Source: Sporolactobacillus vineae DSM 21990 = SL153
GTDB taxonomy: Bacteria > Bacillota > Bacilli > Bacillales > Sporolactobacillaceae
Direction of reading: 5' to 3'
DNA: 64,000 bases
NCBI RefSeq assembly: GCF_000377985.1
Contig: NZ_KB899046.1
Location: 1-64,000 of the forward strand
Shown here in pieces: positions 680-58,015 of the stretch. The notes beneath the pieces are model-generated. The model searched no databases and was not told the DNA's origin. It worked only from the letters and a program-made list of their open reading frames with translations. Numbering within the stretch: position 1 is the stretch's first letter; the number at the start of each line of letters is the position of its first letter. The translations under genes and the position numbers were made by a program.

Positions 680-760
680 GATCGGGTAAACTTTTGACTG
701 ATTCGGGTAAACTCTGCCACGGTTCGGGTGAACTTTTCGCCGATTCGGGTAAACTTTTCA
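680..760. repeat. Tandem repeat array 1 (TTCGGGTAAACTTT family), 4 units
   Basis: Four copies of the core, with the C of CGGG at 683, 704, 725 and 746, an exact 21-bp period. Spacers between cores differ. The last unit abuts the TGA stop codon of the response-regulator gene at 758-760, and no hairpin terminator lies between gene and array. Read in the direction of that gene's transcript, each unit is AAAGTTTACCCGAA. Confidence 0.9.
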
Positions 761-1399
761 GGGTTGATGTTTGAGATAGTAAATGGCGAGTTGGGTGCGG
801 GTGCGGCAGTTCAATTTTTCAAGCAGTCGGGTAACGTTGTTGCGGACGGTGCCTTCGCTCAGGAACAGTTTGCCGGCGATGTCGCGGTTGGCGCGGCCCT
901 CGGCAATCAGGGCGAGGATTTCCTGTTCGCGGCGGGTCAGGGTTTCGCCCCATTCGGAGATGATTTTCGGGGGTTCGGACGCGTCGGCGCCGAGCATGGC
1001 GGACAGTTTTTCGGCAACTTCGCCGCTCATGACGACGCTGCCCTTTGCGGCGGTGCGCAGGGTGGCGATGATTGTGTCGGCGGGCTGGCTTTTGAGCAGA
1101 TAGCCGGCGGCGCCGTTTTTCAGGACCTGACGGATGTAGGCGTCGTCCTGGAACGTGGTCAGCATGATGATTTTGAGCGCCGGCCATTGCTTTCTGAGTT
1201 CGGCGGTGGCGCGGACGCCGTCCATGACGGGCATGCGGATGTCCATCAGCACCATGTCGGGCAGATCATTACGGCAAAAACGGACCGCCTCCTCCCCATT
1301 GCCGCAGGTGCCGATCACGTCCATATCCTCTTCCAGGTCAATCATCAGTTTCAGGCTGTCGCAGATCAGCGTGTCGTCATCGACGATCAGGAGTTTCAA
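758..1399 (-). CDS. lnrK: NarL/LuxR-family response regulator, LnrK-like
   Basis: 213 residues: an N-terminal receiver domain with the acidic pocket DDD at 7-9 and phosphoacceptor Asp53 in MVLMDIRMP, then a C-terminal LuxR helix-turn-helix (about 150-200, LTRREQEILALIAEG). The start is a TTG at 1399, inside the end of the kinase gene; no ATG or GTG with a better ribosome site is present. The 23-base overlap with the kinase points to translational coupling. In the B. subtilis lnrJK-LMN locus the orthologous pair turns on the ABC exporter when linearmycin-type polyenes disturb the membrane. The same five gene types occur here, but with transporter genes first and regulators last. Confidence 0.8.
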   Translation of the reverse strand: MKLLIVDDDTLICDSLKLMIDLEEDMDVIGTCGNGEEAVRFCRNDLPDMVLMDIRMPVMDGVRATAELRKQWPALKIIMLTTFQDDAYIRQVLKNGAAGYLLKSQPADTIIATLRTAAKGSVVMSGEVAEKLSAMLGADASEPPKIISEWGETLTRREQEILALIAEGRANRDIAGKLFLSEGTVRNNVTRLLEKLNCRTRTQLAIYYLKHQP

Positions 1400-2480
1400 A
1401 GAGCCCGCCTTCTTTCCTGTTTTTCGGCAGCAGGCAGACGATCGTGAATCCGGCGCTCCCGTCGATCGTCAGGCTGCCCCCCATTGCTTTTACCCGTTCA
1501 CGCATGCCGGTTAAACCTAACTGCTGATTCAGAACCGGCGCGCCCTTCCCGTTATCGTGGATCAGCATCCGGATGTAGCGGCGGTTCTGGGTCAGTTCGA
1601 TCCGGACCGCCGTCGCTTCCGAATGTTTGAACACATTGGTCAGTGCTTCGCGGACATTGGCCGTGAGCACCCGCCACTGGTCTGCCGCTATCTCTTCTGT
1701 ATGCCCGGAAAAGTTGAACGTGACCGGACAATAGGTGAACGACTTCACCAGTTCGCGGAGGGTGTCGAGACCGGTCGGTTTGCGCGGAATCAGGTCGTGC
1801 GCCGTATCGTGGATCAGGCGCAGCGTTCCGGACAGTTCGTCGATCGTTTTCGCGACCAGCTCATCATATTTTCCCCGGTCACATGTACGGATTTTGTACG
1901 CGGCCTGCAGCTGCATATACAGGGAGGCGATCCGGTGGCCGACGGTGTCGTGCAATTCGCGGGCGATCCGGTTGCGCTCTTTCAGCTCGGCAAGATGAAT
2001 GTTCTCTTCCTGCCGGACGCGGAGCAGCTGCCGCGACTTTTCCAGTTCATAGATAGAGCGCCGCTCTTCATCGGTGACCTGCTTAAATCGGGCTTCTGTC
2101 CGGGCCAGCCGGTCGGTCAGCACGGTCAGGTAAAGGCAGACGGCGAGATAGAGCAGATCGAGTGCAAGCTGCTGCGGGCTTAGGAAAAAGGCGGCAGGCA
2201 CCACGATCAGGGCCGCGCCGATGAGCCGGCCGTGTTTCTCGGCCACGATGTCCGGCAGGAGGAGTGCTCCGGCAGCGATGAACACCGGGACCACGAAGCA
2301 AAAAGCGAGCGCCAGCAGCCATTCGGCCCAGGCCAGAACTTTTTCCGGAAAAAATCGTGTTCTTAAAACGTCAAGGATGAGCAACGCCAGAAAGCACATC
2401 ACTTCCAGGGAAGTTAATGTGCCGCGGGCGAGCCCCAAAGCGATCAGGGCGAAGATCAGGATCCGGTAGATGCAGGCCAT
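1377..2480 (-). CDS. lnrJ: Sensor histidine kinase, LnrJ-like
   Basis: 367 residues. Several hydrophobic helices fill residues 1-125 with almost no extracytoplasmic loop, so signals are probably sensed within the membrane. A coiled segment (about 128-165) leads to a HisKA_3 dimerisation motif with phosphoacceptor His177 in RELHDTVGH. The HATPase domain follows with DNGKG and a GLTGMRERV motif near the end. This is the NarX/DesK-like class that pairs with LuxR-type regulators such as the next gene. The ATG at 2480 follows GGAGGCGCCC. It lies 13 bases after the permease gene, so the whole cluster is likely one transcript. Confidence 0.8.
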   Translation of the reverse strand: MACIYRILIFALIALGLARGTLTSLEVMCFLALLILDVLRTRFFPEKVLAWAEWLLALAFCFVVPVFIAAGALLLPDIVAEKHGRLIGAALIVVPAAFFLSPQQLALDLLYLAVCLYLTVLTDRLARTEARFKQVTDEERRSIYELEKSRQLLRVRQEENIHLAELKERNRIARELHDTVGHRIASLYMQLQAAYKIRTCDRGKYDELVAKTIDELSGTLRLIHDTAHDLIPRKPTGLDTLRELVKSFTYCPVTFNFSGHTEEIAADQWRVLTANVREALTNVFKHSEATAVRIELTQNRRYIRMLIHDNGKGAPVLNQQLGLTGMRERVKAMGGSLTIDGSAGFTIVCLLPKNRKEGGLFETPDRR

Positions 2481-2492
2481 GGGCGCCTCCGG

Positions 2493-3596
2493 TCAGCTGG
2501 CAATGTCGGTGCGCCGCCATGAGCCGAGCAGGAAAAACAGGGCGGCGAATCCGGCCAGGATCAGTAAATCCATCATAACATCTTTGAGCCCGTTGCCATA
2601 GACGAGTGTGGTCAGGGCGCGCATACCCCAGGTGGTCGGCATGAAGTCGGCGATCTTCTGCATGAAGACGGGGGTGATGCGGATCGGCCAGAAGCAGCCG
2701 CCGAGCATGGCGACCGGGGTGACGACGAGCAGGCTGAGCGCGTTGGCCTGGCCGGCGGTCCGGGCGACCGAGCTGATCAGGACACCGATGGAGATCGAGA
2801 CGATCGAGAACAGCAGCAGGACGAGAAAAATGTTCACGAGCGACGGGCCGAGTGCGGCGTGGAAGCCGAAGACGAGGAGCGCGAGCAGCAGGATGATCGT
2901 CACAGCGGACAGGGTCAGATAGCTGAGGATGTTCTGGATGTTATAGCTGCGGACCGACAGCGGTGTGGTGAAGAAGCGCGTGTACAGTTTCAGCCGTTTA
3001 TCTTCCATGATCATCCGGGACGAGACGCTGACGATCATGAACAGGCCGAAGATGACGAAGCCGAGGGCGCTGACGGTCCGCTCGCGCATCGCGCCGGTCC
3101 GGTCGGGGCTGCTGACGGACAGGCCGAGATGGTTCTGCTGGTAGCTTTGCAGTGATTTGTAAAATTGCGTGCTGTTTCCGCGGGCGGCGTGTGCCATTAC
3201 CGACAGATCCTGCAGGTAGCCGGAGATGTAGGTGCGGATCCCGCTTGAGACGTTGCTCTCCTGCACGTGGTAGCTCTCTGTTTTGATCGGCTTGCCGCTG
3301 ATCAGCGAGCGGGTAAAATTTTTTGGAATGACCAGCACGGTGTCGATTCTATTGTTGGTGAGGTCGGTGCGCAATGACTTCTGCGCGATCGGGGCGATGT
3401 CGGCCTGGTTGCGGATCGCCTTCTTTATGGCTTGCGTGAGCTGGGTCCGGTCCCGGTCAATGATCCCGACTTTGGCTTTCTGGGTGCCGGAGCCGGAAAA
3501 GGACAGGCTGATGAAGATCAGCGGGATCAGCATGATCAGCACGAAATTCATTTTGTTGTTCAGAAAGCGTTTCAGGTTATTTTGAAAGATCGGCAT
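2493..3596 (-). CDS. lnrN: ABC-2 type exporter permease, LnrN-like
   Basis: 367 residues with ABC2_membrane_3 architecture: one helix at 18-35, a large extracytoplasmic domain to about 170, then five closely spaced helices. It resembles the second permease of linearmycin-type exporters (LnrN/YfiN). The ATG at 3596 follows AGGAGGAATAACC and overlaps the end of the first permease by 20 bases. The two permeases would pair with the ATPase encoded upstream. The substrate is not shown by sequence; polyene or lipid-active antibiotics are inferred from the locus only. Confidence 0.8.
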   Translation of the reverse strand: MPIFQNNLKRFLNNKMNFVLIMLIPLIFISLSFSGSGTQKAKVGIIDRDRTQLTQAIKKAIRNQADIAPIAQKSLRTDLTNNRIDTVLVIPKNFTRSLISGKPIKTESYHVQESNVSSGIRTYISGYLQDLSVMAHAARGNSTQFYKSLQSYQQNHLGLSVSSPDRTGAMRERTVSALGFVIFGLFMIVSVSSRMIMEDKRLKLYTRFFTTPLSVRSYNIQNILSYLTLSAVTIILLLALLVFGFHAALGPSLVNIFLVLLLFSIVSISIGVLISSVARTAGQANALSLLVVTPVAMLGGCFWPIRITPVFMQKIADFMPTTWGMRALTTLVYGNGLKDVMMDLLILAGFAALFFLLGSWRRTDIAS

Positions 3597-4728
3597 GGTT
3601 ATTCCTCCTCAGTGCGGCGATGGTCAGCAGCAGAATGGCGAGCGCGATCAGGGTCAGTTTCAGGACGCCGCCGGCCGCGGTCTGACCCGTGCCGCCATAA
3701 ATATTCTGGAAAACCAGGTTCTGGGCGACCGCGTTGGGCAGCCAGCTGTTGAGCGCTACGGCGATCGGATTGGTGTCAAGAATACTGAGTTTGACATAGC
3801 CGCCGGCGAGAAATGTCGCCACCGGTATGGCAAGATCAAGGATCGTGTCGGCCATTTTATAGGAAAACAGCAGGGCGAGCGCGATGCTCAGCAAGATGAT
3901 GATGAAGCCGAGCAGGAAGCAGACGAGAAAAATGAACGGGAGATTGCTGCCGAAATTGGCGTGATAAATAAATTTGAAAAAGGTCACCAGGACGATGATC
4001 TGCAGGAAAACGGTCGCCAGCTGCCCGAGCGTTTTGCCGATCAGGTAATTGATCTGCCGGACCGGAAGCGAGCGGATCCGGTAGCCGATCGGCGACAGGT
4101 TCATTTCGCGGACGACATTCAGACCGTATGCGGAGGCATACAGGATGATCATGATCAGCATCGTGACGGCATAGTAGTCGCTTGAGCGCGGAATTTTGCC
4201 GTTAATGCTGAGCGCGTGGTCGGCGAGAAGCGGGGCGGCCGGCTGCGGCGCGAAGGCGGCTGCCGCCCGGTACGCATTGATCCGCTGCAGATAGCTCTGG
4301 GTAATATTTTTGATGAGCGAGCTTTCCATGTCGCCGCTGGTGATGAAGTCGAGTTTCTTGCTGCTGCCGTTTTCGACCGCCTGCGTGAATCCCTTATTGA
4401 TCACGATGATGGCGTCGAGCTTCTGTTTTTTCAGATCGGCTTTGGCGGTGCTCAGCGACCGGTAAGTTTTCGTATGGACGATTTTCCTGATCTCTGGACT
4501 GCGGAAAAATTTTTCCATCCGGCCGGCCATAGCGCCATGATCCTGATTGATGAGTGCCGCACGGCTGTCGAGTTTCTCGGCCGTGTCGCTGCTGCCGCTG
4601 ACACTGCTCAGCGCCGTGCCGAGAATCAGCGTCAGGACAATCGGAAACAGGATCATGAAAATGAGGCTGCGGCGGTCGCGGAAGTTCATTCTGACGGTAC
4701 TCAGAAAAACAGCGGCGATTTCCCTCAT
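3577..4728 (-). CDS. lnrM: ABC-2 type exporter permease, LnrM-like
   Basis: 383 residues with the same layout as its neighbour: an N-terminal helix (about 20-40), an extracytoplasmic domain to about 180, and a C-terminal block of five or six helices. It is homologous in plan to LnrM/YfiM. The ATG at 4728 overlaps the stop of the ATPase gene by four bases, and GGGAGGGAG precedes it. The C-terminus ends in a basic cytoplasmic tail. Together with the next permease it should form a heterodimeric membrane channel. Confidence 0.8.
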   Translation of the reverse strand: MREIAAVFLSTVRMNFRDRRSLIFMILFPIVLTLILGTALSSVSGSSDTAEKLDSRAALINQDHGAMAGRMEKFFRSPEIRKIVHTKTYRSLSTAKADLKKQKLDAIIVINKGFTQAVENGSSKKLDFITSGDMESSLIKNITQSYLQRINAYRAAAAFAPQPAAPLLADHALSINGKIPRSSDYYAVTMLIMIILYASAYGLNVVREMNLSPIGYRIRSLPVRQINYLIGKTLGQLATVFLQIIVLVTFFKFIYHANFGSNLPFIFLVCFLLGFIIILLSIALALLFSYKMADTILDLAIPVATFLAGGYVKLSILDTNPIAVALNSWLPNAVAQNLVFQNIYGGTGQTAAGGVLKLTLIALAILLLTIAALRRNNHADLSK

Positions 4729-5660
4729 TGTGCTCCCTCCCGCAGCGCCCGGCCGGTCAGTGTCAGGAAGACGTCCTCCAGCGTCGGCGTATTGGTCTCG
4801 ATTTTTGTGATCGTCAGGTCTTCCTCAAGAAAAGTGTCAAGAACGGCGTTCAGCTTCCGTTCGCTGAGCACAATCCGGATGGTGTGCCCGTCGACGGTCG
4901 CGTCTTTGACGGCAGGCAGGCGCTTCAATTTTTCAATGATCGAATAGTCCGGCGCGGTTACGCCGACCGAGACGACCTGGTCGTCTTCGATCAGCCGCCC
5001 AAGCTCTTCCTGAGTGCCTTTGGCGATGATCCGGCCTTTGTCGACGATCGCGATCCGGGTGCAGATCGACGCCACCTCTTCCATATAATGGGAAATGTAA
5101 ATCACGGTGCAGTGCATGTCGTTGAGTTTCTTCACGGATTCGAGGATGTAGTTGCGCGACTGCGGGTCGATGCCGACGGTCGGCTCATCCATAATGATCA
5201 GGCGCGGCTTGTGGACAATCGCGCAGGCGATGTTGAGGCGGCGCTTCATCCCGCCGGAAAACTGCGACGGTTTTTTATTCCGGATGTCGGTGAGTCCGGT
5301 GAATTCGAGTGCATCAGCGACGCCTTTTCTCAGCGCCTCGCCGCGCAGACCGAACAGTTTGCCGAACAGGGTGACATTTTCCTGGGCAGTGAGTTCGGGA
5401 TAGACCGCGATGTCCTGCGGCACGAGTCCGATCTGTTTTTTTATTGCCCGCTCGCTCGTGCTCAGCGCTTCACCGAAAACGTTGATCGTGCCGTGGTCGA
5501 CAGCAGTCAGACCGAGAATGGCGTTGACCAGTGTCGTTTTTCCGGCGCCGTTCGGGCCGAGCAGGCCGAATAGTTCACCGTCGCCGATTGTCAGGTTCAG
5601 ATGGTCGATTGCCAGAAAATCCTTGTAGCGTTTAATGAGGTCATTGACTTCGATAATCAT
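4725..5660 (-). CDS. lnrL: ABC transporter ATP-binding protein, LnrL-like
   Basis: 311 residues. Walker A is GPNGAGKT at 35-42, the signature is QFSGGMKRR near 135, Walker B is RLIIMDEP near 160, followed by a switch His in YISHYMEE. A C-terminal region of about 90 residues resembles the DrrA-type extension. It is the first gene of the five-gene cluster and would power the two following permeases. The ATG at 5660 follows GGGGGCC at a long spacing. Homologues in B. subtilis (LnrL) confer linearmycin resistance. Confidence 0.82.
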   Translation of the reverse strand: MIIEVNDLIKRYKDFLAIDHLNLTIGDGELFGLLGPNGAGKTTLVNAILGLTAVDHGTINVFGEALSTSERAIKKQIGLVPQDIAVYPELTAQENVTLFGKLFGLRGEALRKGVADALEFTGLTDIRNKKPSQFSGGMKRRLNIACAIVHKPRLIIMDEPTVGIDPQSRNYILESVKKLNDMHCTVIYISHYMEEVASICTRIAIVDKGRIIAKGTQEELGRLIEDDQVVSVGVTAPDYSIIEKLKRLPAVKDATVDGHTIRIVLSERKLNAVLDTFLEEDLTITKIETNTPTLEDVFLTLTGRALREGAQ

Positions 5661-5829
5661 GCTTTTTTGGCCCCCTTCTTATATACTCCCAGCTTATCAG
5701 CGGCAGGGATAAAAAAATAGTGACAGAGCGCCAGAGTTTGCGGTGACAAATGTCATGAGGGGGAAAATGCCAAACGTGTCAGACCAGTTTGGGAGCGCTT
5801 TGAATTTTCAGTGTGCTCCGGGATTCCGG

Positions 5830-6591
5830 CTACTTCCAATGGTTCTTTTCCGATTTGTGGGCAAGGTGGTTCACCTGGCTTGAGAGTCGGTCGACTTTAC
5901 GATTCAGCTGATCAATTTTGCTCACCAGTGCTTTGATGTCGTTTGTGTCCTGATTTTTGCTGCTGTTCACGGTGAAAAAGTCGGTGATCGTGCTGGTCAG
6001 CAAACCGATGAACCCGATGCCGCCGATCATCAGGAAGGAGGCGATAATTTTTCCGATCGCGGTGTGCGGCGAGATATCCCCGTAGCCGACGGTCGTGGCT
6101 GTGGTGATTGCCCACCATAATGCGTCGGAGAGGGATAATTTTTCCACAATCGAGTAAAGGAGGGCGCTCAGGACCAGAATCACAACACTGATGGAGAACA
6201 GATAGATGAATCCGGTACCGTAGATGAACCGGTGGATGCTGCCGGTCAGTTTGCCATCGATGCCGAGAACCCAGAAAATCCGGTGGTCGCGGAGAATCCT
6301 GACGATTCGCGCTGCCCGGAACAGGGCGAACAGCGGATGCATCGGGATCAGGCCGAGCAGATCGAATGAGTTTTCGATCAGAAAACGTTTCTTGTCTTTG
6401 GCGGCGAACAGGCGGATGACATAATCTGCGGCAAAAAATGCCAGAATCCCCGTGGTGATCAGGTTATTTGGGTAACGCGTGATGCTCAGCCGTCCGGTAA
6501 ATGAGAGCAGAACAATGATGATCGGCACCAGTGCGAGCAGAATGACCACGCTGTGATACATCAGCAGGAGCTTGTTTTCCTTTTTTATCAT
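5830..6591 (-). CDS. Voltage-gated potassium channel, six-helix type
   Basis: 253 residues from the preferred start. Helices S1-S4 occupy about 12-105, with a short Arg-bearing S4 (FRAARIVRILRDHR, 91-104). S5, the pore helix and the selectivity filter TVGYGD at 167-172 follow, then S6. The C-terminal 45 residues have heptad-like spacing of Leu and Ile (about 216-247), suggesting a coiled-coil tetramerisation domain. The ATG at 6591 follows GGAGGAT; an upstream ATG at 6606 overlaps that ribosome site and is unlikely to be used. The gene stands alone, 170 bases upstream of the lnr-like cluster. Role: K+ flux and membrane potential; gating is not predictable. Confidence 0.85.
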   Translation of the reverse strand: MIKKENKLLLMYHSVVILLALVPIIIVLLSFTGRLSITRYPNNLITTGILAFFAADYVIRLFAAKDKKRFLIENSFDLLGLIPMHPLFALFRAARIVRILRDHRIFWVLGIDGKLTGSIHRFIYGTGFIYLFSISVVILVLSALLYSIVEKLSLSDALWWAITTATTVGYGDISPHTAIGKIIASFLMIGGIGFIGLLTSTITDFFTVNSSKNQDTNDIKALVSKIDQLNRKVDRLSSQVNHLAHKSEKNHWK

Positions 6592-6737
6592 TGGCTGATC
6601 CTCCATAAAATGCGGTCGGAAAATCCCGATACAGTATACGCTTTGGGCGCGGAATTCCTGGGGATGCGGCTATCCGGATGCGAAGCGTTTCCGGTCCATT
6701 TCGGAGCGCGGTGGCGTGGTTTCAGAGCGTTCGATAA

Positions 6738-6920
6738 TTTCGGGTAAACTTTTGCGTGGTTCGGGTGAACTTTGGCTTGATTCGGGTGAACTTCGGCTCG
6801 ATTCGGGTAAACTTTTCACGCGTTTGGGTGAACTTCGTTATTTCGGGTGAACTTTTGCCTGATTCGGGTAAACTTCGGCTCGATTCGGGTAAACTTCCCA
6901 TGCGTTCGGGTAAACTTTCC
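6738..6920. repeat. Tandem repeat array 2 (TTCGGGTAAACTTT family), 9 units
   Basis: Nine units with CGGG (one TGGG) starting at 6741, 6762, 6783, 6804, 6825, 6844, 6865, 6886 and 6907. All steps are 21 bp except one of 19 bp after the fifth unit. The fourth base after GGGT varies between A and G (TAAAC or TGAAC). It lies 31 bases beyond the scfB terminator and about 150 bases upstream of the channel gene. The rest of the interval 6592-7001 holds only that terminator. Confidence 0.92.
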
Positions 6921-6950
6921 TGAGATTCCGAACAGCGGGTGTTTCTCTAT

Positions 6951-6983
6951 TAAAAAGGGCCGCCTGATTTATCCGGGCGGTCC
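6951..6983 (-). terminator. Intrinsic terminator after scfB
   Basis: On the minus strand GGACCGCC and GGCGGCCC pair over eight positions (one G-U) and are followed by TTTTTAAT. A run of A upstream makes it usable in the other direction too. Confidence 0.8.
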
Positions 6984-7001
6984 GCTGTTCTTTTTTAATA
7001 A

Positions 7002-8393: not shown

Positions 8394-8410
8394 TTTCGGT
8401 CTCCTTTGTC

Positions 8411-13426: not shown

Positions 13427-13696
13427 TCAAATCTGGGCTGCCTGTTCTGTGCCTTTCTGGTATTTCAGCCGGGTCGCCTCCCCTCCCCGAAGATGCCGGA
13501 TGGATTTGTGGTAGTCAAGGACATCTTTTACCGCGTTGGCCAGTTCGGGATTGATGTTGGGCAGGCGCTCGGTCAGATCCTTGTGAACCGTGCTTTTCGA
13601 AACGCCGAACTCCTTGGCGATGACCCGCACTGTCTTCTTCGTCTCCACGATATGCTTCCCAATCTTGATCGTCCGTTCTTTGATGTAATCGTGCAC
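13427..13696 (-). CDS. spoIIID: Sporulation transcriptional regulator SpoIIID
   Basis: 89 residues. The helix-turn-helix TVRVIAKEFGVSKSTVHKDLTERLP lies at 22-46, followed by a basic C-terminal helix (DYHKSIRHLRGGEATRLKY) that also contacts DNA. SpoIIID acts in the mother cell as activator and repressor of sigma-E genes and helps sigK expression. The start is a GTG at 13696 after AGGAGG. Location directly upstream of mbl is as in B. subtilis. Confidence 0.95.
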   Translation of the reverse strand: MHDYIKERTIKIGKHIVETKKTVRVIAKEFGVSKSTVHKDLTERLPNINPELANAVKDVLDYHKSIRHLRGGEATRLKYQKGTEQAAQI

Positions 13697-13885: not shown

Positions 13886-14089
13886 TTTCGGGTGAACTCT
13901 GCGGCAGTTCGGGTGAACTTCTTGTGGTTTCGGGTAAACTCTTGATTTCCGGGTGAACTTTTTCCTGATTCGGGTGAACTTCTTGTGGTTTCGGGTGAAC
14001 TCTTGATTTTCGGGTGAACTTCTTCCCGATTAGGGTGAACTTCACGGCGGGTCGGGTAATCTTTTCTCCGGTTCGGGTCAACTTTTTTA
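13886..14089. repeat. Tandem repeat array 3 (TTCGGGTAAACTTT family), 10 units
   Basis: Ten units with CGGG (one AGGG) at 13889, 13910, 13931, 13950, 13971, 13992, 14011, 14032, 14053 and 14074. Steps are 21 bp apart from two 19-bp steps, each after a CTTGATT spacer. The last unit runs straight into the stop codon of the NERD gene (14087-14089), and no intrinsic terminator separates them. The spacers TGCGGCAG, TTGTGG, CTTGATT and TTCCCGA recur in array 4. The remaining bases of the gap before spoIIID show nothing else. Confidence 0.92.
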
Positions 14090-15103
14090 AAAGTTCCTTT
14101 TGATTGATTGGTAATATTGATCGATCCATTCATATGTGGGAGATTCATAGTAAAGTCCTGAGCCTGTTCCGCTGCCTTTTGGGCGCAGTCCCATTTTCTT
14201 CAGTAAATATTTGATGATTTGCCGATCATCCAGGCGGAGCCAGTTGCGCGCCTGTTTATTGGTGATTGTGGCACCGCGGAGCAGGAAATAATCAAGCAGC
14301 ATCGGTATGTGGGCAGTTCGTGAGCTGTGGCCGCAGCATCGGCAGGCCCAGGCGGCAAAGATGCGGTTCATGGTGTAAAGATGGCAGCGGGGACAACGGA
14401 CACCGCGCTGCAGAGTCTCAAACGGAATGTGGTATTTGGTCAGTGTGTCGTGCGGCGGGTCGGTGTGCTCCTTAATGAGCAGAGACCCGATATGCGGAAC
14501 TTCATCGGTAATCCGGGAACTGTTCTGATATTTTTTCTCGAGGATCTGGATTTTCGAAATGACCTGTTCCGTGTGCAGAACCCTTTCGGCGACATCACGG
14601 GAGCGGCCGGGGTTTTCAATGATCGTCGCCGGGTTGGAGAAAGTCACAAGTGTTTCGAGCGGAATCCGGGGCAGACCGTGATCGTTAAGCCACGCGAGCA
14701 GCAGTTGGCGGTGGCGGGCGACCTGGATCAGGGGATTGGAGAAACCGCTGCGTTTATTGCCAAGTGTGCGGATCATCTGACGCCCGCTCGGTTCAAAAGT
14801 AAGCGTACCGGAATAATTTTTTGCTTCGATAATAAGGGCGAAATTCTCGAGGAAAAGAAAGGCATCCATCTGAAAGGTGTGCTCAAGCACATTTTCACGA
14901 AGGTCATAAAGAATGCGGCAGGCACTGCCGGACAGTGTGCTAAGATAATAGGCAAGGTTCTGCTCACCCAGCCAGCCGGCATGATAGCTGGAGAGATCAT
15001 CGTCGATCCTGGCATAATCGCTGCTGCCGGGCGGCAGATGGTCGCGCAATGCCTGAACAGCGAGCAGCCGCAGAGGCATATGTTGTTGTTTAAGGATTTT
15101 CAT
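14087..15103 (-). CDS. NERD-domain protein with zinc ribbon and C-terminal HTH-like region
   Basis: 338 residues. Residues about 40-150 fit the nuclease-related NERD domain (E in GWLGEQNLAYYL, D in FQMDAFLFL, E-K in IIEAKNYSG), which resembles the PD-(D/E)XK fold. Then comes a four-Cys zinc ribbon (CPRC and CRCC) near 235-260, and a region near 275-325 (NKQARNWLRLDDRQIIKYLLKKM) that resembles a winged helix. NERD proteins are common in Bacillales and their substrate is unknown. The ATG at 15103 follows AAAGGAGG. The stop codon touches repeat array 3. It stands alone, divergent from a small membrane protein gene. Confidence 0.8.
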   Translation of the reverse strand: MKILKQQHMPLRLLAVQALRDHLPPGSSDYARIDDDLSSYHAGWLGEQNLAYYLSTLSGSACRILYDLRENVLEHTFQMDAFLFLENFALIIEAKNYSGTLTFEPSGRQMIRTLGNKRSGFSNPLIQVARHRQLLLAWLNDHGLPRIPLETLVTFSNPATIIENPGRSRDVAERVLHTEQVISKIQILEKKYQNSSRITDEVPHIGSLLIKEHTDPPHDTLTKYHIPFETLQRGVRCPRCHLYTMNRIFAAWACRCCGHSSRTAHIPMLLDYFLLRGATITNKQARNWLRLDDRQIIKYLLKKMGLRPKGSGTGSGLYYESPTYEWIDQYYQSIKRNF

Positions 15104-15211
15104 CAAAGACCTCCTTTAATCGTAGTAACTTTTAAGAAGTTCTTTCCCGCGGGATCCAATTCCTGCCGGCATTTTCAAACATTGTGTGACATCATCGCGG
15201 AGGTAGCAGAA

Positions 15212-33056: not shown

Positions 33057-33162
33057 CAAAATCCGGCCGTCCCAGCGTAAAATCCAGCCGTAAACGACAG
33101 AAATCCAGCCGTGATCAGAGAAAATCCAGCCGTTACGGATAAAAATCCAGCGGTGAACCATT
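33057..33162. repeat. Tandem repeat array 5, different core (AAAATCCAGCCGT), 5 units
   Basis: Five copies of AAAATCCAGCCGT with slight changes (CCGGCCGT first, CCAGCGGT last) at a 21-bp period, starting near 33058, 33079, 33100, 33121 and 33142. Spacers of eight bases are unrelated to each other. It lies beyond the spoIIQ terminator and upstream of the lrp-like gene, the same placement as the four GGGTAAACTT arrays. The remaining bases of 32777-33193 show nothing else. Confidence 0.9.
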
Positions 33163-46292: not shown

Positions 46293-46294
46293 GA

Positions 46295-50025: not shown

Positions 50026-50595
50026 TCAAAGAGGAAAATGCAGCAGGAGTTTGAGCCCGAAAAAGAGCAGGATGATGCCGCCGAGTGCTTCACCGAAGCG
50101 GCCGAAATAGCGCTGCGTCCGTTTGCCGATAAAAAATCCGGCCCAGGCCATCAGCATGCTGATGAAGCCGAACAAGGTGATCGCGGCGAGAATGCGGGTG
50201 CCGAACAGGCCCATGCTCAGACCGACGGAAAAGCTGTCGATGCTGACGCCCAGGGCAAACAGGACAATCCCGGCGTCGGTCCTGAGGGCGAGATCCTTCT
50301 GCCGGTAATCCTGACGGACAAGCGTCAGAATCATTTGCAGGCCGATCAGGATGAGCAGCAGTCCGCCCGCCATACCGGCGATTTCACCGAACCGGTGCGA
50401 AAGCAGATGTCCGACAATGATACCGATCAGCGGCATCAGCGCATGGAAGAGACCGATCCAGACTCCGGTGATCGCTGCCTGGCGAGACCGAAAAGCGGCC
50501 ATGCCCATGCCCATGCACACTGAAAATGCGTCCATACCCAGAGCCAGTCCCATAATGGTTAAAGCCAGCCCCTCGTTGATCAGATCTGCGGCCAC
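50026..50595 (-). CDS. mntP: Manganese efflux pump MntP
   Basis: 189 residues, six helices in two inverted halves. The acidic motifs GLALGMDAFSV and LGVSIDSFSVGLSMG bind the metal. It exports Mn2+. The GTG at 50595 follows AGGGGGGATCGGA; an ATG at 50631 lacks a ribosome site. The B. subtilis counterpart is YwlD. No yybP-ykoY riboswitch is visible upstream. Confidence 0.9.
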   Translation of the reverse strand: MAADLINEGLALTIMGLALGMDAFSVCMGMGMAAFRSRQAAITGVWIGLFHALMPLIGIIVGHLLSHRFGEIAGMAGGLLLILIGLQMILTLVRQDYRQKDLALRTDAGIVLFALGVSIDSFSVGLSMGLFGTRILAAITLFGFISMLMAWAGFFIGKRTQRYFGRFGEALGGIILLFFGLKLLLHFPL

Positions 50596-50668
50596 TCCGA
50601 TCCCCCCTGTTCCTAGAGCCAGTCTATGCATGTCCGGTACGGGATAGAAGCCGGGTGAAGCCGTGCAG

Positions 50669-50714
50669 AAAAAAGCAACCGGATGCTGCGCCTCAGTAAA
50701 AGGTGCAGCATCCG
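50669..50714 (-). terminator. Terminator of ywlC
   Basis: On the minus strand CCGGATGCTGC and GCAGCATCCGG form a perfect 11-pair stem; TTGCTTTTTT follows. Confidence 0.88.
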
Positions 50715-50741
50715 GTTTGAATCACATTTTTTATGTAAAAA

Positions 50742-51785
50742 TTACTCAAGGACGCGTCCGGCCGCTGCTTTGGACAGACGGTTCATGATCGCTTTGCCGA
50801 TTCCGGCTTCCGAAAAGGTCTCGCTGTAGATGACGTTGACATTCTCGGCATCGAAACGGCGCAGGACGGCGAACAGGTCGTGGGCGACCGTCACCGGATC
50901 GCTGCGCCGGCCGCAGGTCAGGACCACATCGGCATCCGGAAAGGCATCCTTATTTTCCAGAGTCGTGAGCACGCCGACGCGGCGGTGTTCATTCTTCTGA
51001 TTGACGACCAGTTCCCGGATCCGGTCTTTGCCCTTCGGAACCAGGTACATTGTGGCTTCGGGCGCATAATGTTTGTACTTCATCCCCGGTGCTTTCGGTG
51101 TCTGATCGGGACGGGTCAGTCCGGGATCATCGGTCACAGGGCCGATGACTTCGGCCAGCTGTTCACGGGAAATGCCGCCCGGACGGAGAATCGTCATCGG
51201 GGTGGTCGTGCAGTCGACGACGGTCGACTCCACGCCGACTCCGGTTTCACCGCCGTCAATGATACCGGCAATTTTTCCATTCAGGTCATGCAGTACATGC
51301 CCGGCCGTCGTCGGACTCGGATGGCCTGAACTGTTTGCCGAGGGCGCCGCAATCGGCAGTCCTGATGCCAGAATCAGTGCGCGGGCGACCGGATGGCTCG
51401 GCATCCGGATCGCGACGGTGGACAGACCGGCCGTGACGGTATCGGTGACAGCCCCGCGGGAAGGCAGTACCAGTGTCATCGGACCCGGCCAGAAAGCGTC
51501 GATCAGTTTCTTGGCCATCGGATTGATCTCCGTACAGATCTCCCGGACCTGCTCTTCGGTCGCGACATGAACGATCAGCGGATTGTCGCTCGGTCTGCCT
51601 TTTGCCGCATAAATTTTCCGGACTGAGTCTCGGATCTTCGCATTACCCCCGAGGCCGTACACGGTTTCTGTCGGGAATGCGATGATCTCGCCGCGCTCCA
51701 GCAGGGCGGCAGCTTCCCGGATCTGCGGATCATTAACCAGATCCTCCGCTTCCGGGTCCACCTTCCACAATTTCGTTTTCATCAT
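50742..51785 (-). CDS. ywlC: L-threonylcarbamoyladenylate synthase (Sua5/YwlC)
   Basis: 347 residues. The YrdC domain (about 25-210) has the KxRxxxxP-type site in YAAKGRPSDNPLIVHV and AIRMPSHPVAR, plus PSANSSGHPSPT. A linker leads to the C-terminal Sua5 domain (about 235-345). It makes threonylcarbamoyl-AMP for the t6A37 modification of tRNA. The ATG at 51785 follows GGAGATTCAGAAC; the long in-frame extension upstream has no ribosome site. About 300 bases to spoIIR are empty. Confidence 0.93.
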   Translation of the reverse strand: MMKTKLWKVDPEAEDLVNDPQIREAAALLERGEIIAFPTETVYGLGGNAKIRDSVRKIYAAKGRPSDNPLIVHVATEEQVREICTEINPMAKKLIDAFWPGPMTLVLPSRGAVTDTVTAGLSTVAIRMPSHPVARALILASGLPIAAPSANSSGHPSPTTAGHVLHDLNGKIAGIIDGGETGVGVESTVVDCTTTPMTILRPGGISREQLAEVIGPVTDDPGLTRPDQTPKAPGMKYKHYAPEATMYLVPKGKDRIRELVVNQKNEHRRVGVLTTLENKDAFPDADVVLTCGRRSDPVTVAHDLFAVLRRFDAENVNVIYSETFSEAGIGKAIMNRLSKAAAGRVLE

Positions 51786-52084
51786 GTTCTGAATCTCCTT
51801 TTTTCCATGTTTCGTTTCAATCAAGCCGGATGTCCGGCAGTCTTTCAGTACGAAGGCGTAAGAAATGTCTGTTATTTCCAGATTCCGTTCAACTTGTCCG
51901 TTTCGTTTGTTTCCGGCATCCGATGCCTGCGGGCAATCTGTATGTCTCCCGCCCATTAAGCCGGACAGTATTTTGAACGGAGCCTTTCTCTCAGGCACAA
52001 TAAAACCGGCGCGCAGCCGGCAGGACAACATGTTCAGTATACACTATTTCACAAACTCCGGCTGTGACACGGATACCGCAGTGA

Positions 52085-52828
52085 TTATTTCGTTACTGAG
52101 TGCCACATGGATGTAAAGAAATCGACAACGAAGAAGTGGACCTGTACCCGACTTTTTGCCGGGGGCCGGGCCGCTTCCGGCGCTGCGTCCTGCGGCTGCC
52201 CGGCGGTTATCCGCTGAGCAGCAGACGGACGGGCGGAAGCCGCACCAGTCGCTTCGACAGTTTCCTGTTTTGCCGGTTTCACAGCGGTGCCCGCCGCTGA
52301 AGGCTGCGGCGCCGGATCCTGCCGGACGGCCTCACTGTTGGAGAAATCCAGGAAGCAGAGGGGCGGGAACAGGACGCACCACCAGTTGGCGCCCTGCCCG
52401 TCGCCAAGCGAGATCACCAGTGCCTGATACTGTCCCGCCGGATAGACATATGTTCCGTACATTTTTGTCGGAAAATCGGCTTTGCCGAGCTTGATCGTGA
52501 AGGTGCTGTCGGCATGAAGGCGGCGCAGCGTCCGGGCTACGGTCTGCTGAAGTTCGGGCAGATGGTCGCGGATGACCGTTTCCGCCTGCCGGGAGGTCTT
52601 CAGATTGCCGACCCAGCCGGTAATCCGGCTGTTGACCGCATCGCGGACCTGGCGTTTCACCGTCTGGTCTGCCGGTGTGTCGCTGTTGGCAAGGATTCGC
52701 AGACGGATCGCGTTCTGCGGGATCGGCCCCTTTTCATCGGCTTTAGTTGTGCTGCTCTGCCAGAAGAGAAAGATCACAAGATTGATAGATAAGATAAATA
52801 GAATGACTAAAACTTTTTTCGTCTTCAT
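52085..52828 (-). CDS. spoIIR: Stage II sporulation protein SpoIIR
   Basis: 247 residues. A signal peptide or anchor covers 5-24. The conserved domain has AIRLRILANSDTPADQTVKRQVRDAV, YPAGQYQALVISLGDGQGANWWCVLFPPLCFLD-type motifs, of which GDGQGANWWCVLFPPLCF is diagnostic. It is secreted by the forespore to activate SpoIIGA and so pro-sigma-E. A Pro/Ala-rich linker near 175-220 is unusual in length, followed by a hydrophobic C-terminus. Confidence 0.92.
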   Translation of the reverse strand: MKTKKVLVILFILSINLVIFLFWQSSTTKADEKGPIPQNAIRLRILANSDTPADQTVKRQVRDAVNSRITGWVGNLKTSRQAETVIRDHLPELQQTVARTLRRLHADSTFTIKLGKADFPTKMYGTYVYPAGQYQALVISLGDGQGANWWCVLFPPLCFLDFSNSEAVRQDPAPQPSAAGTAVKPAKQETVEATGAASARPSAAQRITAGQPQDAAPEAARPPAKSRVQVHFFVVDFFTSMWHSVTK

Positions 52829-52893
52829 GCCGCCGCCTCCCTTACCCGACAGTGTGGACGGGTCCGGAGAAAAATAAACGCAGCGGTCATGAA

Positions 52894-53769
52894 TTATTTT
52901 GTCCGCAGTACGGCCATGACGTTCCGGTCAAGACCGGCGAGATCTTTTTCCACCGACAGCGCTTCGATGCGGTCCGGATAGGCCCGGCGGATCAGACTGC
53001 CGACTGCCGCCCCCTGCGCGGCACCGATTTCCAAAGCCAGGACAAAAAACGGTCCTGTACCGAACAGCGTGCGGGCGCCGGTGACGATCCGGCGGTAAAA
53101 GTCCAGACCGTCGGCGCCGCCGAACAGGGCCAGATGCGGTTCATAATCTCTTACCGTGTTGTCGAGCGCGTCCATCTCGTCACCTGTAATGTAAGGAGGA
53201 TTGGAAACGAGGAGATCAAAAGATTCATTTTTAACCGGGTCGATCAGATCGCCCTGGCGGAACGTGACTGCAGCACCGAGTGTTGCCGCATTCTGCTCAG
53301 CAACAGCCAGTGCCCGCGGCGAAATATCGGCTCCGGTGACGTGCCAGTCCGGGTGTTCCAGCGCCAGGGTAACGGCAATCGCGCCGCTGCCGGTGCCGAT
53401 ATCGCAGACCGACAGTCTCTTCCGGCCGGGAAAAAACCGCGCCGCCCACTTGCCGCAGCGGTAAACGAGTTCTTCTGTTTCCGGACGCGGAATCAGCACA
53501 TCCGGCGTTACCCTGAATGTCCGGCCATAAAAAGGTGCCTGTCCGGTCATGTACTGGACGGGGGTACCATAAACCGCATGACGGGCAACATGCTCCTTCA
53601 GCCAGGCTTCATCCGCGGCCGGCAGCGGCTCGCGGATGTCTGCCAGAAGATCGGTCCGTGACAGATTGAGCCGATATTCGAGCAGAATCTCGCCGATATT
53701 CTCATCGCGGTGATGACTTTTTAATAACGCTGCTGCCCACTTGAGCGCTTCATATCGTTTCAGTGTCAC
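52894..53769 (-). CDS. prmC: Release-factor glutamine methyltransferase PrmC
   Basis: 291 residues. SAM is bound by [14 protein letters not shown] near 125, and the substrate Gln by SNPPYI near 190. It methylates the Gln of the GGQ motif in release factors. The start is GTG at 53769, overlapping the prfA stop (GTGA). Confidence 0.95.
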
Positions 53770-54839
53770 GGGGCATCCGCCTGTTCGATTTTTTTCGCCT
53801 GATCGTTCAGAATCAGCGCATCGATGAATTCATCGAGCTTTCCGCCGAGCACCTGATCGAGCTGGTGGACGGTCAGTCCGATCCGGTGGTCCGTGACCCG
53901 GTTCTGGGAATAGTTATAGGTGCGGATCCGTTCCGAGCGGTTACCGGTGCCCACGGCCGACTTCCGGGTAGAGTCATAGTGTTCCCGCGCTTCGCTCCGA
54001 TACTTGTCATAGACCCGGGCGCGCAGGACTTTCATCGCTTTTTCCTTATTCTTGATCTGCGAACGTTCATCCTGACAGGAGACAACGATACCAGTTGGAA
54101 GATGCGTCAGCCGGATCGCCGACATCGTCGTGTTAACTCCCTGGCCGCCCGGGCCGCTTGAGGCGAACCGGTCGACGCGAATATCCTTGTCGTTCAGTTC
54201 TACTTCGACCTCTTTCGCCTCCGGCAGCACGGCCACGGTCGCGGTCGATGTATGGATCCGGCCGCCGCTCTCCGTCTCCGGGACACGCTGGACGCGGTGA
54301 GTCCCACTCTCATATTTCAGCCGGGAATAAGCACCCCGCCCGGTGATCATACACACGACTTCTTTATACCCGCCGATTTCATTCGGGCTGGCGTCGATCA
54401 CTTCCAGCTTCCAGCCATGCTGCTCCGCATAACGGGTATACATATTGAGCAGATCGCCGGCCCAGAGCGCCGCTTCATTACCGCCGGCGGCACTGCGGAT
54501 TTCAAGGATCACGTTGCGTTCGTCGTTCGGATCCCGGGGTACGATCAGCTGCTTCAGCCGTTTTTCCAGTTTCGGTTTCTGTGCTTCCAGCCGGCCGATC
54601 TCGTCCTGAATCATCTGTCTCATGGCGTCATCCGATGTCTCGTCGATCATTTCCCGGGCATCGGCAAGCTCCTGCGCATTCTTTTTATAAGCCCGATAGA
54701 CCATGACTGTCGGCTCGAGCTCGGACTGTTCCTTCGAATAATCGCGCAGCTTCACCGGATCGCCAATCACCTCAGGATCGGCGAGCAGTTCATTCAGTTT
54801 GTCATAGCGGTCTTCCGTCGCCTGCAGATGTTCAAACAT
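53766..54839 (-). CDS. prfA: Peptide chain release factor 1
   Basis: 357 residues. The catalytic GGQ is in [18 protein letters not shown] near 225-240, and the stop-codon reading region PxT is near 185 in the sequence around [10 protein letters not shown]. It reads UAA and UAG. The ATG at 54839 follows GAGGTGAGACAG; a start 18 bases upstream lies inside this site. Confidence 0.96.
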
Positions 54840-54934
54840 CTGTCTCACCTCGTACACTTCGGGTAAGCGCTTAACCCAGTTTCTTCATTAATATCATTAT
54901 ATGATGATCTCGTTTTCAGCGTCAAAACCGCGGG

Positions 54935-55507
54935 TCAGATTGGCGGATGACTGTAGCAGTGACGGCAGACAGGATAGTAACTTTCATTGCCGCCGATCTT
55001 GATCTGATCGCCTTCATAGACCGGTTTGCCCGCCCCGTCGATCCGCAGGTTCATCGTCGCCTTCCGCTCACAGAACCAGCAGATCGTCTTCATCTCTTCA
55101 ATTTTATCCGCATAGAGCAGCAGATACTTGCTGCCCTCAAACAGTTCATTGCGAAAATCATTTTTCAGACCGAATCCCATCACCGGAATGTTGCATGTAT
55201 CGACGATTTTCGCCAGCTCCAGCACATGCTCCTTCGTCAGAAACTGCGCTTCGTCGACAAGCACGCAGTGCGGGCGCGGCAGATACTCCGCGACCACCGC
55301 ATAGATATCGGTATTCTTAAAAATCGGTATCGCCTTCCGCCTGAATCCGACACGGCTGGAGATTGTACCGACCGCATCCCGATTGTCCATGCCGGACGTA
55401 AACAGCAGCACCGGTTTGCCTTGTTCTTCATAATTGTGCGCGACTTTAATAATCTCGATCGACTTTCCACTGTTCATCGCGCCATATTTAAAAAAGAGCT
55501 GTGCCAT
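54935..55507 (-). CDS. tdk: Thymidine kinase
   Basis: 190 residues. Walker A-like GAMNSGKS at 9-16, the Walker B region [10 protein letters not shown] near 83, and a zinc ribbon CWFCERK with CRHC at the end. Type II thymidine kinase of the salvage pathway. Confidence 0.96.
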
Positions 55508-55548
55508 GAATCGTACTTCCCTTCTGCCGGGGCATCCTCTGCAGGTAT

Positions 55549-55575
55549 AAAAAACAGACAGGAGACCCTGTCTGC
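55549..55575 (-). terminator. Terminator of rpmE2
   Basis: On the minus strand CAGACAGG and CCTGTCTG pair across GTCT and are followed by TTTTTT. tdk starts 42 bases further on. Confidence 0.88.
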
Positions 55576-55656
55576 AGCGATCATACGCAAATTAAAACGG
55601 CTGATTCCAGCGCGGCCGGAATTGCCGTTTCTCTTCCGAGCATCTGAATACAATCC

Positions 55657-55902
55657 TTATTTGAGGTTGTATTTCTTCTTGAACCGGTCGACACGTCCGC
55701 CCTTGTCCGCAAACTTCTGACGGCCTGTGTAGAATGGATGCGAGTCGGAGCTGACTTCGACAGTGATCAGCGGATATTCGTTTCCGTCTTCCCACTTAAC
55801 GGTCTGATTCGATGTCTTGGTCGAGCCGCTCAAAAACTTAAAACCGGTACTTGAGTCCTGGAATACGACTTTGTGATAGTCGGGATGGATACCTGGTTTC
55901 AT
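55657..55902 (-). CDS. rpmE2: Ribosomal protein bL31, type B (zinc-independent)
   Basis: 81 residues. It lacks the CxxC zinc pair of type A L31 and has the type B pattern [30 protein letters not shown] and [13 protein letters not shown]. In B. subtilis the slot between rho and tdk holds the zinc-binding type A gene, so here a type B protein occupies it. The ATG at 55902 follows GGAGATGAATGAA. Confidence 0.93.
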
Positions 55903-56097
55903 TTCATTCATCTCCTTTGCGCCCTGATTATTCTCTCAAACCAGAGTCTGATAGCATAACGCACAACGAGTATTGTATCAGGAAAAAATGTGATTTGCAA
56001 GCCGGCATGATGGCGTGTCACGTATGTCCGGGGACGGCGTGATGCCGCGCTCCGAATGCGCTGTGCCCGTCATGTCTTCCGGTCAGGCACACGGCTT

Positions 56098-57372
56098 TCA
56101 GCTTTGCGCGTGCAGCAAACCGCTTTTCTCCTTATCGAACAGATCGAAGAACTCCTGATTGGATTTCGTCTGGCGAATTCGTTTAAAGAAGGACTCAACA
56201 AATTCAGGCGACTCGTCCATTGTTTTGCGCATCGTCCATAATTTTTCCAGATGATCCCTGCTGACCAGCAGCTCTTCCTTACGCGTGCCGGACCGGCGGA
56301 TGTCGATCGCCGGGAAAATCCGCCGTTCGGCGAGCCGGCGGTCCAGATGCAGTTCCATGTTGCCGGTGCCCTTGAACTCTTCATAGATGACGTCGTCCAT
56401 CCGGGAACCGGTGTCGACCAGCGCCGTGGCCAGGATCGTCAGGCTGCCGCCCTCTTCCAGATTACGCGCCGCGCCGAAGAATTTTTTCGGCTTATGGAAT
56501 GCAGCCGGATCAATACCACCGGACAGTGTACGGCCGCTCGGCGGAATGACCAGGTTATACGCGCGGGCCAGCCGGGTCAGGCTGTCCATCAGAATAATGA
56601 CATCATGTTTCTGTTCGACCAGCCGCATCGCCCGTTCCAGAACCAGTTCCGATACCTTGACATGATTCTCCGGAACTTCATCGAACGTCGAACTGACAAC
56701 ATCGCCGCGCACTGAGCGTTCGATATCGGTGACTTCCTCAGGCCGTTCATCGACAAGCAGCACCATCAGATCGGCGTCCGGATAATTGATGCTGACACTG
56801 TTGGCGATTTCTTTCAGCAGTGTCGTTTTGCCGGCTTTCGGCGGTGCCACGATCAGACCGCGCTGGCCGAAGCCGACCGGTGAAATCATATCGATGATCC
56901 GTGTCGAGAAGTTTTCCTTTGCCGTTTCCAGCACCATCTGCCGGTTCGGATAGAGCGGTGTCAATGCCGGAAAATGGACACGATCCTTAGCCGCATCAGG
57001 ATTCTCGCCGTTGACCGCTTCGACCCGCAGCAGACCGAAGTAGCGCTCGTTTTCTTTCGGCGGCCGGACTTTTCCGGTAACCTTATCGCCGTTGCGCAGA
57101 TCGAAGCGGCGGATCTGGGACGCGGAAATATAAATGTCTTCCGAACTCGGTGAATAGTTGATCGGGCGGAGAAATCCGAAGCCTTCGTTCGGGATGATTT
57201 CAAGGACGCCTTCCATAAATGAGAGTCCGTCCTCTTCCGCCTGCTTTTTCAGAATCGAGAAAATGAGCTCGCGCTTGGTCAGTTTGCTGTAATAGGAGAC
57301 CTTGTACACTTTTGCCTGCTCATAGAGTTCCCTCAGTTTCATATTTTCCAATTCTGCTAATGTAATTGCCAT
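56098..57372 (-). CDS. rho: Transcription termination factor Rho
   Basis: 424 residues. An N-terminal helical domain, the RNA-binding cold-shock-like domain (about 50-115, [25 protein letters not shown]), Walker [12 protein letters not shown] near 178, Walker [18 protein letters not shown] near 260, and the Q-loop and R-loop ([20 protein letters not shown]). It ends Rho-dependent transcripts, and in Bacillus limits antisense RNA and sporulation. Upstream, 57373-57760 is a 390-base leader without an ORF; in B. subtilis rho is autoregulated there. Confidence 0.96.
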
Positions 57373-57764
57373 TGCCGCACCACGTTTCTTGTAATTTTTT
57401 AACTGATTGCGTTTTCACTGTGAATGTTATAGAGACAAGAGGATTCCGATCCATTGATGCATCATAAAAAAGACATGGGATATGATTGGGTTATGCGATC
57501 TGTTCCTATCCGGATGTTTGCACTGAAATGTGCCCTGAGAGGAGAAAAGGGATATTGCTGAAGCATGACTATCTGCTGACAGCGGGACAAAAGGTCATTG
57601 CACGTTCAATGACGGACCGTCGTACCCGGGATTGATCCGCTGAATATCATCTTACATTCTATGTTCTTTTTAGCACATTATACCCGTTTACGCAACTTTT
57701 CTAACAGAAATCAGAAAAAAAAGCGGAAAAAGCCGCGATTTTTCATAAATTCGGTTTGTTCCCT

Positions 57765-58008
57765 GGTTCGGGTAAACTTTTTGTGGATTCGGGTAATCTT
57801 CGCGGCAGTTCGGGTAAACTTTTTACGGATTCGGGTAAACTCTTGTTTTTCGGGTAAACTTTTTCCCGGTTCGGGTAAACTTTGCGGTAGTTCGGGTAAA
57901 CTTTTTGTGGATTCGGGTAAACTCTTGTTTTTCGGGTAATCTTTTCCCCGATTCGGGTAAACTTCGCGACGGTTCGGGTAAACTTTTTACGGATTCGGGT
58001 AATCTTGA
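57765..58008. repeat. Tandem repeat array 4 (TTCGGGTAAACTTT family), 12 units
   Basis: Twelve units with CGGG at 57769, 57790, 57811, 57832, 57851, 57872, 57893, 57914, 57933, 57954, 57975 and 57996. Steps run 21,21,21,19 and repeat, so there is a higher-order period of 82 bp made of four units, three times. The 19-bp step always follows the spacer CTTGTTT. It begins eight bases beyond the murAB terminator and lies between murAB and rho. Confidence 0.95.
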
Positions 58009-58015
58009 GCACAGT

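Follow-up and report, generated by a model that had tools for sequence, protein, structure and literature searches.

Direct-repeat arrays paired with HTH-bearing NERD genes in Sporolactobacillus: a candidate nuclease-array module

We analysed the first 64,000 nucleotides of contig NZ_KB899046.1 of Sporolactobacillus vineae DSM 21990 = SL153 (assembly GCF_000377985.1; this whole stretch is called the window), in which four arrays of short direct repeats are dispersed between genes. One of them directly follows a gene for a protein with a NERD domain (PF08378), a zinc ribbon and a helix-turn-helix (HTH)-like C-terminal region. Across 15 genomes of the genus we found HTH-bearing NERD genes to be paired with arrays of their own, a pairing about which we have little doubt. 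Judging from comparisons of genes and repeats, the arrays are probably cognate DNA sites of the NERD nuclease encoded beside one of them, gene and arrays together forming a nuclease-array module.

Results

Association of arrays with NERD genes

A search of the 15 genomes with PF08378 gave 69 rows, 47 with the C-terminal region and 22 without. The control consisted of 741 open reading frames (ORFs) of at least 300 aa, crude longest-ORF picks with six NERD genes removed; for all classes an array was counted if it lay no more than 700 bp from either gene end. With a strict finder of 20-21 bp-type arrays, arrays were detected at 40/47 HTH-bearing NERD genes, compared with 26/741 control ORFs and 2/22 NERD genes without the C-terminus. 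When arrays found by Tandem Repeats Finder (TRF) were also accepted, the counts were 45/47, 41/741 and 3/22, respectively. On the 3' side alone the strict finder gave 35/47 versus 20/741, and where arrays lay on both sides of a NERD gene they were on the same strand in 7/7 loci tested.

The two remaining HTH-bearing genes were inspected individually. In one case the array lay 1.5 kb off, behind an inserted ORF that appears by eye to be a transposase; in the other, the final 85 bp of the contig showed approximately four units by eye. In G011, a 411-aa ORF (C1:1050418-1051653; transposase by eye) separates the NERD stop codon from its array. Both strict arrays among the 22 genes without the C-terminus belonged to broken genes of G009, whose HTH remnants adjoin the array. 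Another broken gene among the 22, G008_C4_108545, retains a remnant of the HTH; its array lies 767 bp past the shortened frame, slightly beyond the 700-bp rule. G014_C63, which has lost its HTH, was also counted in this class.

The NERD protein of the window

The gene beside the third window array and its parts are as follows:

14087..15106, minus strand: putative array-binding nuclease gene, 339 aa, with NERD, zinc ribbon and HTH-like C-terminus
14636..14980, minus strand: NERD (PD-(D/E)xK-type) domain, residues ~44-157
14327..14404, minus strand: zinc ribbon, residues ~235-260, with weak zinc-ribbon profile matches
14132..14320, minus strand: HTH-like C-terminal region, residues ~263-325, a fold suggested by sequence pattern alone

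PF08378 matched the protein with E 1.8e-15 (57.9 bits against a curated cut-off of 22.1) and likewise matched 42/42 members of an alignment of relatives (A1). Three residues invariant across these 42 relatives, D81, E94 and K96, fit a PD-(D/E)xK site and, going by this motif, are presumably catalytic. The four cysteines of the zinc ribbon are also invariant in A1, and the C-terminal region resembles a winged HTH. In Pfam the window protein gave the NERD domain, one weak zinc-ribbon match and nothing else. When it was used as a tblastn query, three partial plasmid matches and no phage match were returned.

Arrays of the window

The window contains four arrays with the same core:

680..757, minus strand: solo array, 4 units, adjoining the stop codon of a lnrK-like gene
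6738..6919, minus strand: solo array, 9 units, behind a scfB-like gene and its terminator-like hairpin
13886..14085, minus strand: home array, 10 units, immediately downstream of the NERD gene and upstream of spoIIID
57765..58008, minus strand: solo array, 12 units, in the spacer from murAB to rho

Together they hold 35 units (4 + 9 + 10 + 12), each composed of a 12-bp core, TTCGGGTRAACT, and a variable spacer of 7 or 9 bases. The step is 21 bp with five exceptions of 19 bp (two each in arrays 3 and 4, one in array 2). These exclude a heptapeptide reading frame, and we rejected coding heptad repeats as an explanation. A search with TTCGGGTAAACTTT, allowing up to two mismatches, gave 35 matches in the window, 33 of them within the arrays, against an average of 0.18 in 100 shuffles; TRF detected the window arrays independently. 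An earlier note made from the sequence alone was thus right to describe a dispersed family of four arrays and 35 copies. Its observation that the arrays lie 3' of minus-strand genes in one orientation also holds for all four: in the sense of the preceding gene (response regulator (lnrK-like), radical SAM/SPASM protein (scfB), NERD and murAB, respectively) the unit reads AAAGTTTACCCGAA. At the same time, each array lies upstream of the minus-strand gene that comes next.

From position 1 to ~16 kb of the window the GC skew is positive, and further on it is negative. This switch may indicate a stretch, acquired or rearranged, that takes in the lnr-like operon between two of the arrays.

Array families of the genome

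We searched the whole genome (2,862,363 bases in 45 contigs) for the TTCGGGTRAACT-type repeat with a 14-mer, allowing at most one mismatch. This family (fam1) has six array loci, namely the four window arrays, C4:223898-~224000 and C31:1496-1572; two further lone 14-mer matches on C4 were taken for chance. The C31 array is oriented opposite to the genes that flank it, so the orientation rule is not absolute. A strict two-unit fam1 pattern detected no array in the 14 other species of the genus. The same pattern, run against one genome each for 84,980 species (a collection that may omit the window's own and very near records), hit a single place, in a Xenorhabdus gene that by eye, from its translation, is of replication type. 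The exact core therefore looks species-specific.

The phenomenon itself is general: scanning 952 kb of this genome and 300, 300 and 200 kb of three relatives for repeats of any core at 18-23 bp revealed several families with different cores and steps of 20-21 bp. In its own genome the window protein is one of five HTH-bearing NERD genes, which are matched by five cognate array families, and one orphan family was also found. The five genes (given by the positions of their NERD domains) and their cores are:

C5:14636, core TTCGGGTRAACT
C4:213497, core ACGGCTGGATTT, gene and home array at C4:213377-214425
C4:48578, core ATGCGCGCAT
C7:79273, core GGCGATATAT
C35:937, core AAGTTGATCCTA

Each of the five families has solo arrays elsewhere in the genome. 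The second family (fam2, ACGGCTGGATTT) has eight array loci, one of which lies in the window and was absent from the earlier note:

33057..33156, minus strand: fam2 solo array (ACGGCTGGATTT), 5 units, with its NERD gene on another contig

The cores of fam1, fam2, fam4 and fam5 are not palindromic; that of fam3, ATGCGCGCAT, is. Contig C4 starts within a fam4 array (C4:1-150), so long arrays may break assembly.

The spoIIID locus across species

The home array of the window adjoins a conserved neighbour, which served as locus anchor in the 15 genomes:

13427..13696, minus strand: spoIIID

When the window genes were mapped, an array-bearing spacer between the NERD gene and spoIIID was also found in three relatives, with another core. 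Identity between the window NERD protein and its counterparts in three relatives is 50-59%, compared with 90-96% for the adjoining spoIIID and mbl. An array was present upstream of spoIIID in 14/15 species (13/14 besides our own), with changing cores that include AAGTTYACCCGAA (own), AAGTTAGACCGAA, AGTAACGAAC, AAGTCGAACCGAA, AAGTTCCACCGAA, AACTTCAACCGAA, AGTCGCACCGAA, AAGTTAAAGCGAA and AAAGTCGGTCCGAA. A NERD match lay near spoIIID on the same contig in 14/15 genomes, at a distance of 4 kb in G003. In G013 the NERD gene and spoIIID are split between two contig ends, and the same core is present at both. G014 was the sole species without an array at spoIIID, and its NERD protein ends before the HTH-like part.

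Co-variation of core and HTH

For 46 gene-array pairs (G005_C35, with a low motif score, was left out), core distances correlated with HTH-region distances (r 0.47) and with NERD-domain distances (r 0.45). A reduced set of 42 pairs, from which G006_C1_808781 (broken HTH) and three near-duplicates were also removed, gave Mantel values of r 0.48 for core and HTH and r 0.46 for core and NERD. The partial Mantel values were 0.31 for core and HTH given NERD and 0.25 for core and NERD given HTH; for all four, p was 0.0005, the floor of the test. The most clear-cut example was a natural swap in G012 and G013, which have a common core, AAGTTAGACCGAA, with a divergence of 0.18 in the recognition region and 0.57 in the NERD domain. 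In the pair G012 and G003, NERD divergence is 0.19, recognition-region divergence 0.53, and the home cores are different.

We also considered whether similar cores are avoided within a genome. No pair within a genome was closer than 0.45 (0/67), but since close pairs between genomes are rare as well (7/968 closer than 0.3), this is no significant avoidance.

Occurrence outside the genus

A profile of the family matched in 93/398 genomes and 49/145 genera sampled in the class, with E up to 1e-12, some of the matches covering part of the profile length only. Among the 28 loci outside the genus taken from this search, the strict finder detected an array at 18, and 20 had one at the gene ends once TRF was added. 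Beyond the class, a strict array was found at 0/24 NERD loci examined (29 rows, 24 with loci), and the profile matches there end before the HTH-like part.

Placement and spread of solo arrays

In the 952 kb sampled, 8/9 solo arrays located after a co-directional gene are in the sense of that gene (one-sided binomial p ~0.02, post hoc). We classified 17 arrays by spacer type, using crude hexamer-model gene calls: co-directional genes flanked 10, convergent genes 4 and divergent genes 3, compared with 211, 27 and 67 for all spacers longer than 150 bp. The choice of spacer is thus not clearly special. One solo position, 3' of murAB, was compared across species, and by eye ~1.5 kb on this side held no array in 14/14 relatives. 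The one array among their murAB loci was in G013, on the other side of the gene; an array in the window's position by murAB was seen in our own species only. In several relatives murAB and rho are separated by other genes, and the spacers compared are therefore not identical.

Some solo arrays share more than the repeats. At the C4:48578 gene, an 87-bp segment that runs from the NERD stop codon through to the end of the array recurs with 96.6% identity at C5 ~113.6-113.7 kb. Five of the seven fam2 solo arrays were examined and all five start behind a TTTCCATAAAATGG-like leader, which the home array is without; three fam4 solo arrays have a common leader of roughly 50 bp. These common leaders and the copied segment hint at copying of the repeats driven by the protein, a suggestion that we make tentatively.

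These results modify the earlier note in several respects. Its single dispersed family proves to belong to a set of at least five families with a NERD gene for each, the third window array being the home of fam1. The arrays do lie for the most part behind genes and in a single orientation, with the inverted C31 array as a counterexample. Placement behind minus-strand genes does not organise the system, however; the NERD gene beside the third array does, and the spacer types are not clearly distinctive. By the note, arrays confined to this strain would count as a refutation. This is, unexpectedly, half the case: the fam1 core was not found in the other 14 species, but the architecture recurs with other cores upstream of spoIIID in 14/15 species.

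Discussion

Proposed mechanism

We propose that the C-terminal HTH binds the 12-bp core, which we consider likely, with one protomer per two helical turns. A row of protein would then be held on one face of the DNA along the array. The nuclease might act at or near the arrays, and repair or copying might expand, homogenise and spread them; of this step we are considerably less sure. Copying would deposit solo arrays in further intergenic spacers; the gene would stay where it is and be inherited vertically, and the specificity of the nuclease would drift together with its arrays. More broadly, there may be a large class of such modules in Bacilli-type bacteria, in each of which an HTH-guided NERD nuclease would copy a private direct-repeat array around the chromosome. 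In this generalisation, which we put forward with reserve, array and reader would re-specify together, one genome would carry several distinct modules, and a host function would be possible at loci such as spoIIID; the modules would amount to a PD-(D/E)xK equivalent of RAYTs and REPINs.

A number of observations weigh against this proposal. The C-terminal HTH-like part matched nothing named in Pfam, NCBIfam or the PDB, and the single-sequence AlphaFold model of the protein (predicted local distance difference test score, pLDDT, 38) was useless for the fold. The core correlates with the NERD domain as well (r 0.46; partial 0.25), so that shared descent explains part of the core-HTH signal, and the natural swap of G012 and G013 is one case. 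In G003 the array on the spoIIID side differs from the core beside the NERD gene 4 kb away; the array nearer spoIIID bears the core of G012 and may represent an older specificity or the trace of a second module. One orphan family, TTGGCTGAAT (C4:64832-64884 and C4:206196-206272), had no NERD gene that we could find in its own genome. A broken NERD gene in G006 (C1:1071826) has kept an HTH remnant with no array detected, and a NERD fragment on C9 of G012, one of the 22 rows without the C-terminus, has a TRF array. Finally, 8/28 in-class loci outside the genus had no array in their flanks.

Alternative explanations

The main rival is a role in defence or addiction, in which arrays would mark self or serve as a sink: the nuclease would be held or silenced by the arrays of its own genome and would attack array-less DNA, or be freed when the chromosome is damaged. 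The invariant nuclease residues and the several paralogues per genome with different cores favour such a system, and NERD domains are present in defence systems according to one paper (PMC12458937). Against it, PADLOC gave no full-length match of the window protein to a known anti-phage defence model. The best match was weak and partial (PDC-M16A, E 1.9e-4, residues 78-142). The mapped loci, moreover, lie among housekeeping genes, e.g. spoIIID and the atp-murAA region, and the lineage-specific copying of arrays would be left without a reason. We regard this explanation as unlikely.

Less likely still, the protein could polymerise on the arrays to set expression or chromosome topology, its nuclease fold being used for binding. 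The spacing of two helical turns, the shared orientation of most solo arrays after co-directional genes and the long conservation of the spoIIID locus speak for such a regulatory or organising function. Pure binding, however, would not need the catalytic residues, which are invariant; the only solo position compared across species (3' of murAB) is shared by 0/14 relatives, and the spacer types that hold arrays are not clearly different from those available.

That the arrays work in RNA, as repeats carried in 3' untranslated regions, is improbable. The sense orientation of 8/9 solo arrays would suit such a role, but several arrays lie behind terminator-like hairpins and others are upstream of NERD genes, between divergently called genes or, at C31, inverted. 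We give even less credence to leftover known sites (IS21 ends, iterons of phage replication) or neutral minisatellites: although some IS21 ends of the genus have 22-bp-type direct repeats, and a pair of cores recurs in the phage-like replication gene of Xenorhabdus, in three viral contigs and weakly in plasmid replication genes (E 0.06-0.8), the IS21 ends observed have other cores in few copies, the viral and Xenorhabdus matches are by our own reading in-frame linker codons, for a second core all matches were coding and for a third there were none, and neutral repeats would not follow NERD-HTH genes.

The phage-type replication genes in question (L019 5702, L020 1779, L021 3439 and L022 3439) encode linker repeats with the fam1 core at 19-21 bp, probably a coincidence of tandem linker repeats. 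The 22-bp-type direct repeats were seen near IS21 ends of the genus at L149, L150, L159 and L161, and the ends in C25 of our genome and C19 of G008 are identical (TGCCATCTTTTTTACCACCGAATG). In G011 (C1 ~1593 kb; L136, ~2340-3636), a CRISPR-like array with a 66-bp period starts no more than a few tens of bases from the right end of an IS21 element. A function in replication polarity (KOPS/Ter-like) was rejected: a search for dif-like sites in the window and six stretches gave an unconvincing best hit with 9/28 mismatches, and array orientation does not change where the local GC skew flips.

Significance

If the proposal of a NERD nuclease with cognate arrays is correct, a widespread nuclease-related domain would gain a role, and a class of intergenic repeats that is otherwise puzzling would be explained. 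Dozens of naturally occurring pairings of an HTH sequence with the DNA core that it recognises would be at hand as a data set for a recognition code. Finally, there would be a second, independent case of a non-coding family and a vertically inherited nuclease persisting side by side, with a bearing on the reasons for which bacteria retain them.

Comparison with known systems

CRISPR direct repeats are ~23-50 bp long and are separated by unique spacers. Here the core is 12 bp and the spacers 7 or 9 bp, and no Cas protein was found among the eight window proteins scanned. As the core is also not palindromic, the earlier note correctly placed the arrays in neither the CRISPR nor the REP class. 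Iterons and ParB-type centromere arrays consist of direct repeats about two helical turns apart, with the binder encoded next door and sequences specific to each paralogue. The loci described here differ in being chromosomal and dispersed and in having a nuclease as the protein. With regard to phage replication iterons, the neighbour of the array is here a NERD gene and not a replication gene.

The ends of IS21, Mu and Tn7 carry several direct copies of the transposase site approximately two helical turns apart (PMC10122671). Our arrays are likewise multi-site direct repeats, but they have many more copies, occur as solo arrays and are without istA/istB or inverted ends; the IstB profile had no match on contig C5 of our genome. 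Among NERD proteins (PF08378), the N-terminal domain here is a clear member, and the NERD proteins of the genus that lack the C-terminus are mostly without arrays. According to a 2022 study, the NERD domain had to its authors' knowledge been unstudied in any bacterial protein before (PMC9040797). Terascale clustering has yielded six systems in which nucleic-acid proteins lie beside non-CRISPR arrays, one of them with a PD-(D/E)XK nuclease, and a figure legend of that work includes NERD among its domain names (PMC10910872, consulted in excerpts). The systems in those excerpts have arrays with hypervariable spacers, one of them with an AddB-like protein. The loci behind the NERD entry may nevertheless be an earlier description of NERD-array pairs. 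Among the titles listed of open-licence PubMed Central papers on 'NERD domain' or 'nuclease-related domain', none linked the domain to such arrays. The pairing of a nuclease with an array, each with its own repeat sequence, would thus appear from the loci compared to be a genetic module for which we found no description in the open-licence literature.

A vertically kept gene with dispersed cognate repeats is what we observed for the spoIIID-locus NERD gene and the fam1 and fam2 loci, and this likens the nuclease-type gene and its non-coding repeats to the RAYT/REPIN system. RAYTs are tyrosine transposases of the Y1/HUH type, and their REPs are palindromic; the repeats flank the RAYT gene and are clade-specific. 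RAYT is described as a single-copy, vertically inherited gene that duplicates dispersed non-coding repeats (PMC8049555). The present loci have instead a NERD domain of the PD-(D/E)xK type, direct arrays with a 20-21 bp step and an HTH-like reader. Four of the five families here are not palindromic, and the window protein has no Pfam match to a Y1 (HUH) transposase, so membership in the RAYT/REPIN system fails. By analogy, the nuclease-array pairs would nonetheless seem most like RAYTs with their REPINs in function, with an unrelated nuclease and direct-repeat arrays in their place.

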